Shown piece by piece: positions 206-48,705 of a stretch of DNA of 48,705 nucleotides. Source of the DNA: a virus; the IMG/VR virus record IMGVR_UViG_3300030329_005201, positions 1 through 48,705 of that record, one strand, 5' to 3'. Within the stretch, counting starts at the first letter, position 1; each line of letters opens with the position of its first letter. The notes beneath the pieces are model-generated. The model saw only the letters and a program-made list of their open reading frames with translations. It was not told the DNA's origin and did not search any database. A program made the translations under genes and the position numbers.

Positions 206-388
206 GTTCTCGTAGCTTAATGGTAGAGCATATGGCACCAAGCATAACCTACAACCATGATAATAATCCATACCGTGGTCATGGTCAGCGGAGTAGTAGC
301 GATAACTGTTTTCCCTCCTTAAACAGCACGCAGCTTGCGCATGGAAGCGCACGGTCCATAGGACTGGGTTCGATTCCCAGCGAGAACT
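206..388 (+). tRNA. Interrupted or enlarged tRNA (anticodon unassigned)
   Basis: The ends are those of an ordinary tRNA: acceptor GTTCTCG (206-212) with CGAGAAC (381-387), D-arm GCTT-AATGGTA-GAGC (215-229), and T-arm CTGGG-TTCGATT-CCCAG (364-380) with a canonical T-loop. Between D- and T-arm lie about 134 nt instead of about 22. TATGG (231-235) pairs perfectly with CCATA (356-360), as an anticodon stem interrupted by about 120 nt would. Alternatively TATG pairs locally with CATA (243-246) over an 8-nt loop, leaving a giant variable region. The insert itself folds into hairpins (ACCATGA/TCATGGT, CTGTTT/AAACAG, TGCGC/GCGCA). I see no clear group I intron core. CCA is not encoded. Amino-acid identity cannot be given. 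Confidence 0.6.
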
Positions 389-936: not shown

Positions 937-1479
937 ATGGGACTAGGTTTATTATCTATGATATTGTGTCACGTGGTGGCATTATATGACATGCCTAATG
1001 CAGAAACTGCGTGTAAAAATATGGATCATATAGTTAAATACTCGTATGAAAATGATATTCAGCCTGAAACATTAATTTCGCTTATTTATTATGAGAGTCG
1101 ATGGACACCTCATGTTGTCTCTAAATCAGGAGCATGTGGTTTGACACAAGTACTGCCGAAATATACCAAAGGTACTTTAGGTAAGCATTTATCATGTAAA
1201 GACCTTAAAGATCCTGAAACTTCAATAAAGGCAGGAGCAACCATATTAAGTTCTCATTTGAAACATTATGATGATAATCTTAACTTAGCATTATGTGCAT
1301 ATAACCGTGGACGTAAGAACTGTAAAAGTTTATTCATTAAACGAAAGGGCAACTCCTACTCAAGGAAGATAAAAGGACATGCTGCCCAGGTCAAAGAAGG
1401 TCGATATGACACCATGGACTGCTTAGATCAGGATGAGTGTTGTATTGATCCACAATGGCATGTACCCATTCATTACTAA
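937..1479 (+). CDS. Lytic transglycosylase (SLT-type lysozyme fold)
   Basis: The 180-residue product should cleave the glycan strands of peptidoglycan. The SLT signature is visible in order: IYYESRWTP with the catalytic Glu near residue 53, SGACGLTQVLP (about 63-73), and CAYNRG (about 121-126) near the end of the domain. The N-terminus (residues 1-16) is hydrophobic and could be a short signal or anchor. The ATG at 937 is chosen because AAGGAGG lies 8 nt upstream. The last 30 residues are Cys- and Asp-rich and outside the usual domain. The gene heads the rightward block and could serve lysis or, as in many myoviruses, wall penetration. The family assignment is firm; the exact role is inferred. 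Confidence 0.85.
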   Translation: MGLGLLSMILCHVVALYDMPNAETACKNMDHIVKYSYENDIQPETLISLIYYESRWTPHVVSKSGACGLTQVLPKYTKGTLGKHLSCKDLKDPETSIKAGATILSSHLKHYDDNLNLALCAYNRGRKNCKSLFIKRKGNSYSRKIKGHAAQVKEGRYDTMDCLDQDECCIDPQWHVPIHY

Positions 1480-2880: not shown

Positions 2881-4005
2881 ATGGGATATCTAACAGATCA
2901 AATAATCACGTACATAGGCAATAAGAGAAAGCTATTAGACTTCATTGATACAGCAGTATGTGATGTCAAAAAAGAATTAAACAAACCCTCTTTATCTATA
3001 TTTGATGGATTCTCCGGCACAGGAATTGTTGCTCGGAAACTAAAGTCCCACGCAAACTTCCTAGTTACAAACGACCTTGAGAAGTACTCTCATGTAGTAA
3101 ATACATGTTATTTAGCTAATAAGTCTGAAGTAGATAGTAAGCAGCTTAATGATATAGTATCTTACTTAAACGAAGTAAAGACAGATAAGATCTATGATCG
3201 TCCTGGAATTATAGAATCACTATATTGTCCAGAAGATGAGAGTAATATAAAAGAAGCAGATAGAGTATTTTATACTAAAGAGAACGCTCGAATAATTGAT
3301 AATATTCGAAGACTACAGAACGATAACTACACACAGGATTATAATCTATTCTCGTCAATAATCGGACCATTACTATCGGAAGCTTCCGATAAAGTTAATA
3401 CTTGTGGTGTATTTTTAGGCTTTTTCAAAGATAAGAATACGGGTGTAGGTAAGTACGGTGGTACTACTTCTAAGGCTTTAAAAAGGATTAAAGGTACTAT
3501 AAACTTATCAGTACCTATTCTTTCTGATCATGAATGCGAGTGTGTTTGTTTAAATGATGATACAAATAGTGTAGTTAAATCACTTAAACATGTAGACCTG
3601 GCATATTATGACCCTCCTTATAATCGGCACTCCTATGGTGCCAATTATTTCATGCTTAACATTATTACAGATTATGAGTGGCCACTAGATATAAGTAGAG
3701 TTAGTGGTGTGCCTAAAGACTGGAATAGAAGCATGTACTATAAAAAAGCAGAGTCTAAAGAAGCTTTAATAAATCTCATAGACAATACTAATGCTAAATA
3801 TATATTATTATCCTACAGTAATGAAGGGTATATTCCTTTTAAAGAAATGACAGATATATTAAACAGCTTTGGTAAAGTACGTATTTATGAGAAGTCGCAC
3901 CGTAGGTACAATACACATGTATCTAAAATGGCAAGTAGACCTGAAGACTTCAAGACTAAAACCAAAGAATATTTGTTCTTAGTCAAAAAGGGTAAAATAT
4001 GTTAG
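2881..4005 (+). CDS. DNA adenine N6-methyltransferase (D12 class)
   Basis: The 374-residue product should transfer methyl from SAM to adenine in DNA. Visible motifs are YIGNKRKLLDFI near the N-terminus (residues 11-22), the SAM-binding motif DGFSGTG (42-48), and the catalytic DPPY (244-247) in YYDPPYNRHSY. The order (SAM motif before DPPY) and length fit the alpha-type D12 family that includes Dam and FokI-type enzymes. No partner restriction endonuclease is adjacent, so it is probably a solitary enzyme protecting phage DNA or altering expression. The gene follows a regulated-looking promoter, and its stop overlaps the next gene by 7 nt. Confidence 0.9.
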   Translation: MGYLTDQIITYIGNKRKLLDFIDTAVCDVKKELNKPSLSIFDGFSGTGIVARKLKSHANFLVTNDLEKYSHVVNTCYLANKSEVDSKQLNDIVSYLNEVKTDKIYDRPGIIESLYCPEDESNIKEADRVFYTKENARIIDNIRRLQNDNYTQDYNLFSSIIGPLLSEASDKVNTCGVFLGFFKDKNTGVGKYGGTTSKALKRIKGTINLSVPILSDHECECVCLNDDTNSVVKSLKHVDLAYYDPPYNRHSYGANYFMLNIITDYEWPLDISRVSGVPKDWNRSMYYKKAESKEALINLIDNTNAKYILLSYSNEGYIPFKEMTDILNSFGKVRIYEKSHRRYNTHVSKMASRPEDFKTKTKEYLFLVKKGKIC

Positions 4006-4613
4006 CATTGAGACCACCAAACTATTTCATCGATAATATCAAAGCTCACTTCGATGAGAGGCGTTACAAGTTCTTTGACGGCAATAAGCCGTTCAACCTT
4101 AACATCATCGGTGTAAGAGGCACTAGCGTAGCCTCAGGACGCTTTGACGACTACATATGTATGATATACAGAACAGACAAGCTTGAATGGGTGCTAGACC
4201 TGTGTGAAGCAACGACGGATCCGGGCAAGATTTATTTAAAGAATCCCATTAATAGAAAGGGTTGTGCTGTACTTGCTCCGGGGCAATACCGGGGTGCATA
4301 TAAAATTGGTATGCATAGAAACAAGTATAAAGCATTAGTTCAATCAAATGGACCTGTAAAAGTATATAGAGATAATAATAGAGATGATGTAATTAACTAC
4401 GGTGAAGCGGAATATACAGGGCATTTTGGAATTAATATACATAGAAGACATCCTGGGCTTAAAGATGATTTTGTTAAAGGCTCTAGTGCGGGTTGTCAAG
4501 TTTTCAGGTATTCAAATGAGTTCAAACATCTTATGAACTTAGCTACAGTATCTGCAGATATTTATGGTAATTCGTTTACATATACATTACTTGAAATAAA
4601 AGATTTCCTATGA
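3999..4613 (+). CDS. Probable cell-wall enzyme with SAGC motif (YkuD-like)
   Basis: 204 residues. The central part reads GRFDDYICMIYRTDKLEW...EATTDPG...GCAVLAPGQYRGAYKIGMH..., followed by FGINIHRR...GSSAGCQVF (about 145-170). A His followed by S-x-G-C resembles the active site of L,D-transpeptidase (YkuD) folds, with Cys as nucleophile. This architecture recurs in phage proteins usually left unnamed. It is translationally coupled to the methyltransferase gene (overlap 3999-4005) and lies two genes upstream of a peptidoglycan-binding-domain protein, supporting a wall-active role. The fold call is by eye, so confidence in the specific reaction is moderate to low. Confidence 0.6.
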   Translation: MLALRPPNYFIDNIKAHFDERRYKFFDGNKPFNLNIIGVRGTSVASGRFDDYICMIYRTDKLEWVLDLCEATTDPGKIYLKNPINRKGCAVLAPGQYRGAYKIGMHRNKYKALVQSNGPVKVYRDNNRDDVINYGEAEYTGHFGINIHRRHPGLKDDFVKGSSAGCQVFRYSNEFKHLMNLATVSADIYGNSFTYTLLEIKDFL

Positions 4614-11080: not shown

Positions 11081-11575
11081 TTAATTTTTTTTTTGATTAT
11101 TAACTACTCTAACAGCTTTTTCAATTTCTCCACTTAAAAAGTTATCTGCTCCTGAGTTGCCACCAAACTCTGCTTTTAGTGCATCCCAGGTTTCACCAAA
11201 TACTAAATCTTTTGATTTACTAATAGCAATAGACTTTAATCGAGCCTTCTCTTGATCTGTAAGCTTACCATCTTCTGCAGCGGCTTTGAACTCATCCGCC
11301 ATGGTTTGAGACAGTTCAGATACAACGCCAAATACAACTTGGTTGGTCTTTAATAAAGCCCTTTTAACCATATCATATTTAACCTTTTCTTCAATTAATC
11401 TTTTTAGATATTTTCCACACCATAATAATACAGGCACTAAAGCAACTCCAACAATCCATGGTATGCCTTCACCTAGTAATTTGATCCAAAAGCTACCTGA
11501 TCCATCTTCTGCAAATGCAATAGATGGGATTAAAGTTAAAAATGTAAATAGAGATAAAAATAATGATTTGTTCAT
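11081..11575 (-). CDS. Holin-like membrane protein (signal sequence plus TM)
   Basis: 164 residues. MNKSLFLSLFTFLTLIPSIAFAED is a signal-type segment, and GIPWIVGVALVPVLLWCGKYL (about 38-58) is a transmembrane helix. The rest is a charged, helical cytoplasm-type tail with VKRALLKTNQVVFGVV...EFKAAAEDGKLTDQEKARL. The layout resembles phage LL-H-type holins and signal-arrest membrane proteins, but it sits among fibre genes, so a virion role is not excluded. AAGGAAA precedes the ATG. It ends at the A10 run described under the next ORF. Confidence 0.5.
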   Translation of the reverse strand: MNKSLFLSLFTFLTLIPSIAFAEDGSGSFWIKLLGEGIPWIVGVALVPVLLWCGKYLKRLIEEKVKYDMVKRALLKTNQVVFGVVSELSQTMADEFKAAAEDGKLTDQEKARLKSIAISKSKDLVFGETWDALKAEFGGNSGADNFLSGEIEKAVRVVNNQKKN

Positions 11576-43051: not shown

Positions 43052-43600
43052 ATGTTTATGGTCATTTTGCCGGAAACATCTATAAATAAACTATACGTAT
43101 TTGACTTTGATGATACCATAGTATCTAGTACTGCTAGAATAGTTGTTACAAAGAAAAATGGGCGGAAAGTCAAGCTTAAAGCCTCTGCTGCTAGAAAGTA
43201 TAATCTAGATGATGGCGATATAGTTGACGATTCTCAATTTGAATGTTCACCGCCAAAGGCCAAACTTATACCTCATGTGATATTAAAAGTGCTTAACCTA
43301 ATGCACTATCCATATGACCATGAGATTTTGATACTAACTGCACGCAAAAACAACAAACCAGTTACAGAGTTACTACAATCCTTCAACCTGGAAAGCATAC
43401 CTGTTCATGCAATAGGTGACTTTAAAGCTGAAGCTAAAGCTAAGTTTGTTGATGAATTACTGCATAAAAAAACATATCACGCACTCCATTTATACGAAGA
43501 TTCATTAAGTAATATTAAAGCTATTAGAAACGTATGTAGAAAGCATAAAATACCCTTCTACGGTACACTGGTAGATGTAGATTATGAGTATCTTCTTTAA
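43052..43600 (+). CDS. HAD-superfamily phosphatase (SAK/RNA-repair-like)
   Basis: 182 residues. LYVFDFDDTIVSST (about 14-27) is HAD motif I with the nucleophile Asp. ILILTARKNNKPV (about 91-103) is motif II, and LHLYEDSLSNIKAI (about 147-160) is motif III/IV. The ARK-type motif II and length fit the swiss-army-knife RNA-repair-type HAD group and polynucleotide 3'-phosphatases. It could repair nucleic-acid ends; no kinase or ligase partner is visible in the window. Second Met at 43058 is an alternative start. Confidence 0.8.
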   Translation: MFMVILPETSINKLYVFDFDDTIVSSTARIVVTKKNGRKVKLKASAARKYNLDDGDIVDDSQFECSPPKAKLIPHVILKVLNLMHYPYDHEILILTARKNNKPVTELLQSFNLESIPVHAIGDFKAEAKAKFVDELLHKKTYHALHLYEDSLSNIKAIRNVCRKHKIPFYGTLVDVDYEYLL

Positions 43601-44156
43601 AATAGTCTATTGCTTAATTATACCACTAGCTAAATACTGGTACGCACTAACTATGTACTTTACCCGGATGAAGTCCATAGTGCTACCTATCCACCCTACA
43701 ACTCTATCAATAATCCGTTCATTAAAATGGGGTCGGATGTATAAAAAAGACCCTTTGAACGGCAAATTTGATATCTTATATCATCCAACCAAAATACAGA
43801 ATAACATTAATAAGCTAAATAAAATTGGCGATTGTGATGATCACGCAATCTATTGGTGCACAAACATGCTTAGGGGCGGAGTGCCTAAACTATGCAAAAA
43901 AACGTGGTTCTCGTTCTATACCATGAGAAAAGAAGACGGCAGCTACGCTTCACATGCGATTTGTGTTTATACAGCAAACTCAACGTTTTATTTCGCTGAT
44001 TACAATATCCCGATTGAATGTAAATCCATCAAACAAGCTTTTGAAATAAGCTCTAAACAAAGAAAGGCATCATTTATATGTGGTTATGCTATTGAAGTAA
44101 CTAGCATAGACCTAGATTACACACCTAAATTCGGTAAAGGAATACTTATATTATGA
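43584..44156 (+). CDS. Transglutaminase-like Cys-His-Asp protein with N-terminal membrane segment
   Basis: 190 residues. The N-terminus IFFKIVYCLIIPLAKYWYALTMYF (3-26) is a hydrophobic anchor. The catalytic triad pattern is visible: KIGDCDDHAIYWCTNML (Cys84), YASHAICVY (His124) and YFADYNIP (Asp139), the layout of transglutaminase/cysteine peptidase folds. It may crosslink or cleave proteins at the membrane. It overlaps the HAD gene by 17 nt and the MopE-vWA gene by the ATGA at 44153, so it is the first member of the exported-protein string. Confidence 0.75.
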   Translation: MSIFFKIVYCLIIPLAKYWYALTMYFTRMKSIVLPIHPTTLSIIRSLKWGRMYKKDPLNGKFDILYHPTKIQNNINKLNKIGDCDDHAIYWCTNMLRGGVPKLCKKTWFSFYTMRKEDGSYASHAICVYTANSTFYFADYNIPIECKSIKQAFEISSKQRKASFICGYAIEVTSIDLDYTPKFGKGILIL

Positions 44157-46075
44157 GATACATGTATATAATTTTCTTATCCCTAATGTGTTGCTCAGAT
44201 GGCGAGATTATAAAAAATGGCCAAGGGTCGGATTCTGGGGAGGAAGATATATACATTTGTGAAGTCGGAGAGTTCTATGAGTGTGATTATGGTTTTAATA
44301 CCGGAGAATGCCAAAAACCTATTAAGTACTGCTTTGGTACATTTTGGGGCGAGTGTGTAGGCGGCGTTACTGCTACTGATGAGCTTTGCGATGGTCTTGA
44401 TAATGACTGCGATGAACGCATAGATGAAGGCACATTAAACGGATGTGGTCTATGTGGTCCTACCCCTATTGAATTATGTAACGACATTGATGATGACTGT
44501 GACGGAGCAACCGACGAAGGATTTAGGTTCAACGATGATATTTGCAATGGTATCGACGATGACTGTGACGGAGCAATAGACGAGGGTTGGAGCAAACGAC
44601 TATCATGTTTACCGGAAGGTGGGACGGGAGATTGGATTTCTTATGAAGAAAACTCTGGTTGTCATTATGGTTGGCGTTTATGCATAGAGGGCGATTTTAC
44701 AGATTGTTTTGATTATCAGGGACCAGTCCCTGAAGTTTGTAATGGAATCGATGATGACTGTGATAGTCAAGTAGATGAAGTAGTTATCAGTGAACCTTGT
44801 GGAGTAAATGATGTTGGACAATGTGAGTATGGAAGCTTCCTATGCATAGATACTGAAATGCTTTGCCATGGCGTAATCCTTCCGGAAAATGAAGTATGTG
44901 ATGGCATCGATAACGACTGTGACGGCATTACTGACGAAGGCTTAATAAGAGAATGTGAGACCGCTTGCGAAGTCGGTATAGAAACATGCTTTAATGGGAA
45001 TTGGCGAAATTGCACAGCCTCTAGTCCTACTACTGAAATATGCAATAATTTTGATGATGATTGTGATGGCGATGTAGATGAAGATCTTGATTGTCCTTGT
45101 AATGTAGGTGATCATACCATATGTATTAATGAACCTTGTGGTTATGGCATTCAATACTGTACTGAAGATTTAGTTTGGTCTGATTGTGAAGGTAATGTTC
45201 CTTCAAATGAGCTATGTAACGACCATGATGATGACTGCGACCTTGCCGTTGATGAGGCTTTAGTTAGAGACTGTTATGATGGACCAGTAGGGACAATAGA
45301 TATTGCACATTGTGAAGGAGGTAGTTCTACTTGCTTCCGTGGCCATTGGCTGCAGTGTATAGACCAGTCTTTACCTGAGGATGAAATATGTGATGGTATA
45401 GATAATGATTGTGATGGAAATGTCGATAATATGGAAAGATACTTTGAAAAAGTAGACTTCATATTTGCAATAGATGTTTCAGGAAGCATGAACTCTACCA
45501 TAGAAAGTGCTAAAGATGCATTAGAACTTTATGTAGCATCATTTACCGGAACAGAACATTTATTTGGATTAGTTATATTTGGTGAAATAGATGTACCACA
45601 CAGTACAGAGGCTGGCGCGGGGAGATTATTATCACAACCAAGTTCCATTGCGGACTTTATAACTGCCCTAGAAGACCTACCGGGTGATGGAGGCATCGAA
45701 CCTTCATTAGATGTTGTTTATGACTTAGCTAGTCCGGAAAATCCTTTACAAATAAACTGGCGAAATAATGCCACACCTATCATAGTCCTAATTACTGATG
45801 AAATTGCTCAATCAAACAGGAGTTTAGATAATACAACCGTATATAATCAAATACATCCATGCCAACTCCCTGGTTGTAATAGTGCTACAAATATTAACTG
45901 GGTTGATAATGACCCATTAGAAGTATTTATTATCACTGATAGACAGTTCTTTACCGCTTGGGAACAAATCGTTCCTATTGATAAACAAAGGGTATATAAC
46001 CTGGATTTCTTAAATCCAGGTCAATTTGATGTAGAAATTGAACTTATATTCTCTGAGGCATGTGTAGGAGGTTAA
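44153..46075 (+). CDS. Exported MopE-repeat and von Willebrand A domain protein
   Basis: 640 residues. The N-terminus YMYIIFLSLMCCSDGE resembles a short export or lipoprotein signal. Eight copies of the MopE-type Cys/Asp motif (C-D/N-G-x-D-N/D-D-C-D-x-x-x-D-E) start near residues 79, 109, 131, 196, 249, 297, 355 and 413; they are disulfide-bonded metal-binding repeats. Then VDFIFAIDVSGSMNST (about 434-449) begins a vWA domain with an intact MIDAS DxSxS, and VLITDE is a later core strand. Such proteins are surface adhesins or sensors in Myxococcota and relatives; in a phage this is rare. It precedes the protease gene by one base. Confidence 0.85.
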   Translation: MRYMYIIFLSLMCCSDGEIIKNGQGSDSGEEDIYICEVGEFYECDYGFNTGECQKPIKYCFGTFWGECVGGVTATDELCDGLDNDCDERIDEGTLNGCGLCGPTPIELCNDIDDDCDGATDEGFRFNDDICNGIDDDCDGAIDEGWSKRLSCLPEGGTGDWISYEENSGCHYGWRLCIEGDFTDCFDYQGPVPEVCNGIDDDCDSQVDEVVISEPCGVNDVGQCEYGSFLCIDTEMLCHGVILPENEVCDGIDNDCDGITDEGLIRECETACEVGIETCFNGNWRNCTASSPTTEICNNFDDDCDGDVDEDLDCPCNVGDHTICINEPCGYGIQYCTEDLVWSDCEGNVPSNELCNDHDDDCDLAVDEALVRDCYDGPVGTIDIAHCEGGSSTCFRGHWLQCIDQSLPEDEICDGIDNDCDGNVDNMERYFEKVDFIFAIDVSGSMNSTIESAKDALELYVASFTGTEHLFGLVIFGEIDVPHSTEAGAGRLLSQPSSIADFITALEDLPGDGGIEPSLDVVYDLASPENPLQINWRNNATPIIVLITDEIAQSNRSLDNTTVYNQIHPCQLPGCNSATNINWVDNDPLEVFIITDRQFFTAWEQIVPIDKQRVYNLDFLNPGQFDVEIELIFSEACVGG

Positions 46076-46076
46076 A

Positions 46077-46796
46077 TTGAAATATGGAATGTTCTTATTA
46101 AGCATAATTTTATTATCATCTTGCATATCATATACACCCGCACCTAGACCAATATCTTTAGTGGCTAAATCATTTATATCTATTGAAGAAAAAACAACCT
46201 ACACAGTGTGTAAAGACAAAACTTGCACAATTAAAATAAGTGAATCACTTTCCGGAGGATTTGTAGTCGGACAATCAAAAGAAGGTAGTATTGCACTAAT
46301 GACGGCACATGCCTGCGACCCAGATGTAGGACCTTTCACATTAAAAACCACTGAAATAAAAGCATTTGATTATAATAGTGTCCAATATGATACTGAAATA
46401 TTAAAAATAATGAGAGGAATAGATACTTGTGTCATACTTGTAAAAGATGCTAATTTACCTCAACTATATATGGCAAGATCAGCCCCAAAAATTGGTGATG
46501 AGGTATTTACAGTATCCACCCCACATGGTATTAGAAGCACAAATATGATCCCACTATTTAGTGGGTATTATTCAGGACTTGATAAAGAACTTAATATGGA
46601 TGTTTATACTCTTCCAGTAGACTCTGGATCTAGTGGCGGACCAATACTTGATAAAAATGGACATGTACTAGGACTAGTCAGTAAAAAACCTAATTTCTTT
46701 GAACATATACTATACTCGCCTAGATACGGTATAGTTAACCTTATCTATAACTTGTTTAAAAATGGAATCACAGATAAAAACAAAAACAGCATTTAA
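46077..46796 (+). CDS. Trypsin-like serine protease lipoprotein (TTG start)
   Basis: TTG at 46077 has a perfect GGAGG at 5-nt spacing, so it is taken as start; an in-frame ATG at 46089 is the alternative. LLSIILLSSC with Cys16 is a lipobox. The S1 triad is visible: TAHAC (His78), GIDTCVILV (Asp116) and VDSGSSGGP (Ser186), with PVD-x-G-x-S-G-G-P typical of trypsin/HtrA folds. 239 residues, only one domain, no PDZ. It is predicted to be exported and anchored to the membrane. A host or virion target is unknown. Confidence 0.85.
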   Translation: MKYGMFLLSIILLSSCISYTPAPRPISLVAKSFISIEEKTTYTVCKDKTCTIKISESLSGGFVVGQSKEGSIALMTAHACDPDVGPFTLKTTEIKAFDYNSVQYDTEILKIMRGIDTCVILVKDANLPQLYMARSAPKIGDEVFTVSTPHGIRSTNMIPLFSGYYSGLDKELNMDVYTLPVDSGSSGGPILDKNGHVLGLVSKKPNFFEHILYSPRYGIVNLIYNLFKNGITDKNKNSI

Positions 46797-47022
46797 AGAA
46801 CTTATACTAGCCTTCTACTCTATTAATAACTACTCTAAAGTCGCTGCTATTACATTTTTTCTAGCAAAACTTCAATTCATGATAACACTACTAGCTATGA
46901 TTATATCAGCTTATGCTGCACTTATCTGCTGGACCATTTACACCACGTTTGTATGGACTTCAATTGTATCTGCTACACTAGGATGGATAAAACAAAATAA
47001 TGATAGAATACCTGAAAACTAG
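46762..47022 (+). CDS. Small two-helix membrane protein
   Basis: 86 residues from the ATG at 46762, overlapping the protease gene by 35 nt. Two hydrophobic helices are visible (KVAAITFFLAKLQFMITLLAMIISAYAALICW and TTFVWTSIVSATLGWI). It has no motif, but its place between two exported proteins suggests an anchor or export helper. Confidence 0.6.
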   Translation: MESQIKTKTAFKELILAFYSINNYSKVAAITFFLAKLQFMITLLAMIISAYAALICWTIYTTFVWTSIVSATLGWIKQNNDRIPEN

Positions 47023-47725
47023 ATTAGGAATCATAATAGTCTCAGTTATTATAGCTGTCGCTATCTTCATCCATAAAAATAAAACCTTTGCACAATGCCC
47101 AGATAATATGGTGAAAATCAATGAATTCTGTATTGATAAATATGAAGCACCTAATAAAAAAGGCGCTTTTCCACTCATCATGTTTAGCAAAATACAAGCC
47201 GAAAAATGGTGCAAGTATAGAAATAAACGATTATGCTTTGATGATGAATGGACTAGAGCATGTCAAGGTCCCAATAACTACCCTTACCCCTACGGTAATA
47301 AACTAGTTAAAGGACAATGTAATGATAACCAAATAGGACTGTTTAGGAATATTGACGCACATAAACAACACTATTGGCCGGAACATATATCCTCATCCAT
47401 ATATGTACAATACTATGAACAACAATATAACCTAGCTAAAGCATACTCCTCACACGCATCCACATCTGCTGACTATATTGACTTCCTATATAAAGCCAAA
47501 CCTAGTGGACACAAAACTACATGCAAATCCCATGAAGGCGTTTATGACCTAATGGGCAATGTAGAAGAATGGACGCAAAGAAGACACCATACCCGGAAAA
47601 ACTTTACTGGTAAACTTAAAGGTAGATTCTGGGCCGAATCATACTCATGTAATCAATCTGTAACAAACCACGCAGATGGATTCAATATGTATGAAACTGG
47701 ATTTAGATGCTGTGCAGACTTATGA
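47000..47725 (+). CDS. Membrane-anchored formylglycine-enzyme-fold (FGE/SUMF1) protein
   Basis: 241 residues. The TM helix LGIIIVSVIIAVAIFI (9-24) is followed by the FGE-sulfatase domain: CPDNMVKINEFCIDKYEAP, AEKWCKYRNKRLCFDDEWTRACQG, YPYPYGN, GVYDLMGNVEEWT and the terminal YETGFRCCADL. In classical FGE two cysteines five residues apart are essential. Here ESYSCNQSV keeps the first, but the second position appears to be Thr. The fold could therefore be structural or binding rather than enzymatic; it is shared with C-type-lectin variable proteins. It overlaps the membrane protein gene by 23 nt. Confidence 0.75.
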   Translation: MIEYLKTRLGIIIVSVIIAVAIFIHKNKTFAQCPDNMVKINEFCIDKYEAPNKKGAFPLIMFSKIQAEKWCKYRNKRLCFDDEWTRACQGPNNYPYPYGNKLVKGQCNDNQIGLFRNIDAHKQHYWPEHISSSIYVQYYEQQYNLAKAYSSHASTSADYIDFLYKAKPSGHKTTCKSHEGVYDLMGNVEEWTQRRHHTRKNFTGKLKGRFWAESYSCNQSVTNHADGFNMYETGFRCCADL

Positions 47726-48564: not shown

Positions 48565-48705
48565 CGTCTCAAATGTACGTCTCAGTGGCTTGCTGTCTCA
48601 GTCTCAGTGGCTGTCTCAGTCTCAGTGGCTGTCTCAGTCTCAGTGGCTGTCTCAGTCTCAGTGGCTGTCTCAGTGGCTGTCTCAGTCTCAGTGGCTGTCT
48701 CAGTG
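48565..48705. repeat. Hexamer-based tandem repeat array reaching the window end
   Basis: From 48593 the 18-mer CTGTCTCAGTCTCAGTGG is repeated: 48593-48610, 48611-48628, 48629-48646, 48647-48664, a shortened 12-bp copy 48665-48676, 48677-48694, and a truncated copy 48695-48705. The unit is built from GTCTCA, GTCTCA, GTGGCT. Two ACGTCTCA copies precede it (from 48565). The window ends inside the array, so this may be an assembly edge or a real terminal repeat. Confidence 0.85.

Follow-up and report, generated by a model that had tools for sequence, protein, structure and literature searches.

A candidate extracytoplasmic protease and MopE-vWA gene set on a tailed-phage contig

Results

Five envelope-type genes lie in a row on a phage contig

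The DNA analyzed here (hereafter the window) is a single contig of 48.7 kb, deposited as an IMG/VR virus record. It carries the gene set of a contractile-tailed phage, and the attribution of the five genes studied here to a phage, made in a first-pass annotation, was borne out: the window is a true tailed-phage contig, and contamination by host DNA is unlikely because orthologues of the set occur in other phage contigs. The main features are listed below.

About 14-39 kb, minus strand: structural block with terminase, portal, (major) head, sheath, tape measure, and baseplate genes
About 40.8-48.1 kb, plus strand: forward gene run that includes the five-gene set (ORF calls, Pfam and PHROG scans)
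43584..44156, plus strand: TGL, 190 aa, papain/transglutaminase-like cysteine protease with the triad C84-H124-D139 and a GDCDD motif
44153..46075, plus strand: MopE-vWA, 640 aa, eight MopE repeats of the D-x-D-x-D-G type and a C-terminal vWA domain with the MIDAS motif DVSGS
46077..46796, plus strand: TRYP, 239 aa, TTG start, HtrA-like serine protease lipoprotein with lipobox C16 and the triad H78-D116-S186
46762..47022, plus strand: TM2, 86 aa, two-helix membrane protein by hydropathy, between TRYP and FGE
47000..47725, plus strand: FGE-fold protein, 241 aa, N-terminal anchor or signal and an FGE-sulfatase domain

The five consecutive forward ORFs were recovered at the coordinates first given for them, with spacings of -4, +1, -35, and -23 nt. 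Their tight coupling, noted in the first-pass annotation, proved not to be special: gaps of 5 nt or less separate 35 of the 62 neighbouring gene pairs in the window, and the run extends on both sides, with MazG-like and HAD/kinase-like genes upstream and two small ORFs downstream. Since coupling is genome-wide, spacing alone is uninformative, and it was dropped as evidence. Five envelope/export-type genes in a row would be expected by chance with a probability of about 1e-4 in a rough permutation, for which the list of envelope-type genes was hand-made from hydropathy and about two further non-virion ones were counted in the window.

Several other features of the window were recorded. At 206-388 (plus strand), a tRNA-Arg(ACG)-like gene whose anticodon loop is interrupted by 113 inserted nt was called by ARAGORN only when introns were allowed; the insert is seemingly below the typical length of a group I intron and drew no Rfam call. 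The phrog_3000/endolysin-type protein at 3999-4613 (plus strand) matched nothing in Pfam or NCBIfam and has a 45% identical relative in L022, a MopE-vWA record. Beside apparent tail-fibre genes, positions 11081-11575 (minus strand) encode a protein of 164 aa whose N-terminus (MNKSLFLSLFTFLTLIPSIAFA) clearly resembles a signal peptide. At the right contig end, positions 48583-48705 hold a GTCTCAGTGGCT-type tandem repeat, possibly an assembly artefact.

TRYP and MopE-vWA carry lipobox sequences and conserved functional residues

The reading of TRYP as a trypsin-like lipoprotein was upheld by a match to Trypsin_2 (PF13365, E = 4e-10) and by its lipobox cysteine. An AGGAGG site lies just 5' of the TTG start codon. 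Lipobox C16 and the catalytic H78, D116, and S186 are invariant among 13 aligned sequences, and HTRA1 and DegP are the solved structures that the TRYP profile matched best. The Pfam scan of TRYP returned no PDZ match, and the protein stops at residue 239, which is 39 residues past the protease domain. A profile search placed the family at at least 221 viral loci; among 102 full-length members, a lipobox follows a hydrophobic stretch in 92, and the His and Ser motifs are both kept in 88. TRYP frequently adjoins a gene read as PhoH-like (a label given without a Pfam scan), and does so more often than it adjoins lytic genes. When one TRYP variant was compared with INPHARED, only weak degQ matches were returned.

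For MopE-vWA, Pfam bore out both of the domains assigned to it, with PF11617 covering the MopE repeats (E = 4e-22) and PF13519 the vWA domain (E = 8e-8). By reading, the repeats, which are of the D-N-D-C-D-G type, appear to fit a calcium-loop pattern. The LMCC of the window protein aligns with the LFGC of its 50% identical orthologue in L004, and the window protein is probably best read as a lipoprotein. A single-sequence search recovered 11 IMG/VR contigs, and the collection of 20 further MopE regions led to 39 non-redundant phage proteins. All 39 have the vWA domain at the C-terminal end, with D-x-[ST]-G-S and with DE at the third metal position; a loose lipobox pattern is present in 34 of them, and two of the misses lack a true N-terminus. 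A small three-helix membrane protein is a recurrent neighbour of MopE-vWA, found in six phages.

The MopE repeat is prevalent in Myxococcota. A weak match between the MopE region and Sandaracinus MopE-related proteins fits this prevalence and does not assign a host.

In four phages, signal-bearing proteins of the pattern HELVH...HGDPDH...GW, metallopeptidase-like by motif alone, are encoded near MopE-vWA; the one that was scanned had no Pfam match. Their positions are as follows.

L015:9671-10288: signal-bearing HELVH...HGDPDH protein
L023:9467-10078: signal-bearing HELVH...HGDPDH protein
L231:2572-3204, minus strand: signal-bearing HELVH...HGDPDH protein
L234:7363-8007: signal-bearing HELVH...HGDPDH protein

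TGL has a predicted cysteine-protease fold

TGL had been described as a membrane-anchored transglutaminase-like protein. The protease-like fold stood up to analysis, but the anchor is doubtful. C84 (in GDCDDHAIYW), H124, and D139 are invariant in an alignment of 13 sequences, comprising the window protein and 12 phage relatives; TGL occurs in 12 IMG/VR contigs. The AlphaFold model of TGL (pLDDT 89.6) was matched best by Foldseek to the solved structures of vasohibin-SVBP (E = 7e-4) and Legionella LapG (4fgq, E = 2e-3), both with a probability of 1.00, yet with TM-scores of just 0.40-0.53. LapG, a periplasmic protease of the transglutaminase fold, has calcium near its active site that is important for function (PMC4359373). 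Matches in a viral structure library were mostly weak, and one of them carries the annotation COG3672, predicted transglutaminase-like cysteine proteinase; at the sequence level, no match to TGL was found in Pfam (E up to 1), PHROG, or NCBIfam. The N-terminal aromatic helix has a best 19-residue hydropathy of 1.47. Because this helix is only mildly hydrophobic in most relatives, membrane anchoring is uncertain, and TGL may be cytoplasmic.

Whole-record scans detected TRYP, MopE, or both in 10 of the 12 TGL records, and TGL directly adjoins MopE-vWA in two phages. Conversely, TGL was absent from 49 other records carrying TRYP, MopE, or PhoH. A genome scan with the TGL profile recovered a single contig, binned in a Gammaproteobacteria MAG (L051). 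This contig is possibly of phage origin and mis-binned, so no host is assigned.

TM2 is an orphan and the FGE-fold protein is more likely a binder than an enzyme

The call of TM2 as a two-helix membrane protein agrees with hydropathy, but it is an orphan and the least certain of the five genes: blastp against the fetched loci found no relatives. Its weak PHROG match (E = 0.001) is to a virion structural protein, and it is holin-like in size alone.

The domain of the FGE-fold protein was confirmed by Pfam (PF03781, E = 3e-12, 47 bits against a cut-off of 23.3), and its N-terminus, previously read as a membrane anchor, is an anchor or a signal. The nearest solved sequence is that of SUMF2. Three relatives were found, of which one is close and two are distant, and the orthologue in L025 is 46% identical and has a signal-like N-terminus. 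The copper-site pair C-x4-C is absent from both the window and L025 proteins, in which C217 alone stands at the expected place and is not followed by a second Cys five positions later (position by inspection). Without the C-x4-C pair that active FGE has, the protein is more likely a binding protein than a formylglycine-generating enzyme, as judged from its sequence. Its predicted structure had a pLDDT of 38 and was not used. A role as the variable protein of a DGR was rejected, as no reverse transcriptase was matched among the scanned genes and the FGE C-terminus is conserved between the window and L025.

TRYP and MopE-vWA recur together in other phages

The first-pass annotation suggested a search for the same gene order elsewhere. 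This order was seen in the window alone, so the five genes are not conserved together as one string. One phage, the 136-kb record G003, has orthologues of four of the genes, scattered apart from the TGL/MopE-vWA pair, and no match to the window capsid protein was detectable in it. There, TGL (42% identical) is followed directly by MopE-vWA (50%), an FGE orthologue (46%) lies at 71 kb, and a TRYP lipoprotein lies at 130 kb.

The link between TRYP and MopE-vWA is more general, and parts of the set, this pair foremost, recur in dozens of further large, uncultured phages. The two genes are separated by no more than a few genes at nine non-redundant loci, namely the window, L014, L017, L058, L061, L091, L114 (with near-copies L123 and L126), L124, and L133, and they do so in differing orders: TRYP then MopE, the reverse, and divergent pairs. 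In a 39-domain vWA tree, where two branches are very long and many forks are weak, adjacency requires five label changes, at least three of which are forced by well-supported branches. Among the records of at least 120 kb that were fetched with TRYP, nine of ten encode a MopE protein. Furthermore, among 34 records selected solely by the PhoH-like gene, MopE is present in 12 of the 25 with TRYP and in none of the nine without it (Fisher p = 0.013, falling to 0.003 when two weak TRYP matches are treated as absences), p-values that overstate the evidence because related phages share ancestry and are not independent samples. In records of at least 120 kb that carry both genes, the median scaled distance between them is 0.17 versus 0.5 expected at random, with positions partly estimated from locus ranges and genomes taken as circular; like the figures above, this one is inflated by shared ancestry. 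Because of this recurrence and of the adjacency in other phages, the view that the components belong together is supported.

Lytic genes lie nearby in a minority of the loci only. At loci of the L091/L114 type, a membrane-anchored protein and an SLT lytic transglycosylase lipoprotein stand beside TRYP; in L004, the second gene upstream of TGL/MopE-vWA encodes an Amidase_2 protein; and an SLT gene is found within about 5 kb of MopE in G002 and about 2 kb in G006. The window has one such gene, which is distant from the set on the linear contig and is possibly related to it.

937..1479, plus strand: signal-bearing SLT lytic transglycosylase (PF01464, E = 8e-23) with an N-terminal hydrophobic segment

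Two TRYP/MopE-vWA loci deserve separate mention. L114:5158-9434 (also L123 and L126) holds a compact five-gene version of the module, in the order TRYP, MopE-vWA, membrane-anchored protein, second TRYP, and SLT lipoprotein. L058 (IMGVR_UViG_2716884848_000001) is a TRYP/MopE-vWA contig whose identifier resembles that of a genome or single-cell project and not that of a metagenome.

Members of the set occur in phages that differ in their structural genes

The window capsid protein had no match in 43 carrier records, at a depth that leaves room for very distant kinship, and this absence indicates that the phages sharing genes of the set differ in their structural genes, a distribution that fits a gene pool tied to one type of host or envelope. 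In IMG/VR the capsid has one relative, a distant one (L235, 42%), and the five-gene set was not seen in that 19-kb fragment. The TRYP/MopE-vWA pair marks a gene pool common to such structurally different phages. No cultured-phage relatives of TGL, TRYP, MopE-vWA, or FGE were found in INPHARED, and about 50,000 deposited phage genomes yielded no pairing of a protease with a vWA lipoprotein. In the open-access literature, no description was found of phage MopE/vWA lipoproteins or of the gene combination.

Discussion

The proposal that the set is extracytoplasmic and phage-carried gained support from the lipoboxes of TRYP and of most MopE-vWA proteins, the signal-like N-terminus of FGE, the kept catalytic residues, and the orthologues found elsewhere. 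We tentatively suggest, giving it close to an even chance, that the set is a phage extracytoplasmic proteolysis module directed against the envelope of a Gram-negative host, most likely aiding the exit of progeny. Its basis consists of the sequences and their motifs, a single predicted fold, and the recurrence and linkage of the genes, from which we infer localization, the protease-vWA interaction, the target, and the purpose. The host Sec and lipoprotein pathways would export TRYP and MopE-vWA into the host envelope, and the core would be formed by lipid-anchored, HtrA-type TRYP together with a lipid-anchored, metal-stabilized stalk bearing the terminal vWA domain. In a metal-dependent manner, the stalk and vWA domain may bind or present substrate proteins, or hold the protease. 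The accessories in the window phage would be the LapG/vasohibin-like TGL, a probably non-catalytic FGE-fold binder, and the two-helix membrane protein. The exported proteases would cleave proteins of the host envelope and so weaken it or the proteins on its surface, allowing progeny to leave.

The main rival is remodelling of the host surface for superinfection exclusion or against re-adsorption, with no role in lysis: the proteases would strip receptors or adhesins, and the vWA stalk would mask or crosslink the surface. Phage exclusion lipoproteins exist, and the same predicted localization and protease evidence would serve this reading as well. It also draws on HvyA, a BTLCP protease that alters the capsule and phage sensitivity in Caulobacter (PMC4241560), and on Pseudomonas LapG, which cuts an adhesin off the surface (PMC4694147). 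However, near-constancy in one large-phage group and recurrence in others exceed the expectation for an accessory gene, and some copies lie beside muralytic genes; we regard exclusion as unlikely. Envelope weakening and host exit are favoured over the exclusion of competitors, only modestly, because the pair is near-constant in one large-phage group, recurs in others, and is sometimes accompanied by muralytic genes.

It is also conceivable that there is no common system, and that host-derived genes were acquired separately in a permissive accessory region, with a joint function for TRYP and MopE-vWA only. The unique five-gene order, the 49 records without TGL, the few relatives of FGE (one close and two distant), and the genome-wide coupling would all be expected in that case, whereas the four genes shared with one other phage, the TGL/MopE-vWA adjacency in two phages, and the presence of TRYP or MopE in 10 of 12 TGL records would not, and we consider this explanation improbable. 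A virion or assembly function, with the gene products decorating the particle or processing proteins of the virion, has the weak PHROG match of TM2 in its favour and is highly improbable given the signal and lipobox sequences of TRYP and MopE-vWA and the position of the set apart from the structural block on the opposite strand.

The proteolysis module can be extended to a broader and more doubtful proposal, which we rate as possible while leaning against it. Large uncultured phages might share an extracytoplasmic machine in which a lipid-anchored serine protease is steered by a lipid-anchored, metal-dependent stalk-vWA protein and is joined by interchangeable extra proteases (LapG-like or zincin-like); such a machine would dismantle a specific host surface structure, replacing or complementing the classical lysis proteins. 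If the proteolysis reading is true, phages use targeted extracytoplasmic proteolysis in infection, and the finding points to an unusual envelope in the hosts of the carrier phages. The genes would moreover be a source of new lipid-anchored proteases and of a LapG-like candidate for cutting surface adhesins.

Comparison with known systems

At the level of domains, the set resembles the MoxR-vWA ternary conflict systems, in which vWA, trypsin-like, and FGE-type domains also occur together (PMC7159879). It differs from them in that its products are separate polypeptides, are predicted to be exported and not cytoplasmic, and come without a MoxR ATPase. The absence of this ATPase, noted in the first-pass annotation, was confirmed in Pfam and PHROG scans of the neighbourhood and the larger window genes; with no MoxR AAA+ ATPase beside the vWA gene in these scans, the assignment to such a conflict system was rejected.

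The individual components have closer counterparts. TRYP shares with HtrA, DegP, and DegQ the protease domain, the H-D-S triad, and a predicted envelope location, but it is predicted to be lipid-anchored, lacks a PDZ domain, is phage-encoded, and is paired with MopE-vWA. TGL is like LapG and the BTLCPs (Peptidase_C93, PF06035) in its predicted fold, its C-H-D triad, and the acidic residues around the catalytic Cys (GDCDD), whereas it has no Pfam family match, a slightly better vasohibin score, and no clear Sec signal, and is borne by a phage. MopE-vWA has the repeated CDGxDNDCDG motif of the MopE-related surface proteins (PF11617); in contrast to these, the phage copies examined all have a C-terminal vWA domain, are probable lipoproteins, and are phage-carried.

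Finally, phage lysis cassettes and exclusion lipoproteins are likewise small clusters of membrane-protein and lipoprotein genes acting on the envelope, and muralytic genes lie near some of the loci described here. To our knowledge, proteases and vWA stalks are not among their usual parts, and no holin or spanin was identified in the set. The set would belong to a known class of phage proteins, those that act on the host envelope, with a genuine possibility of being a novel system.
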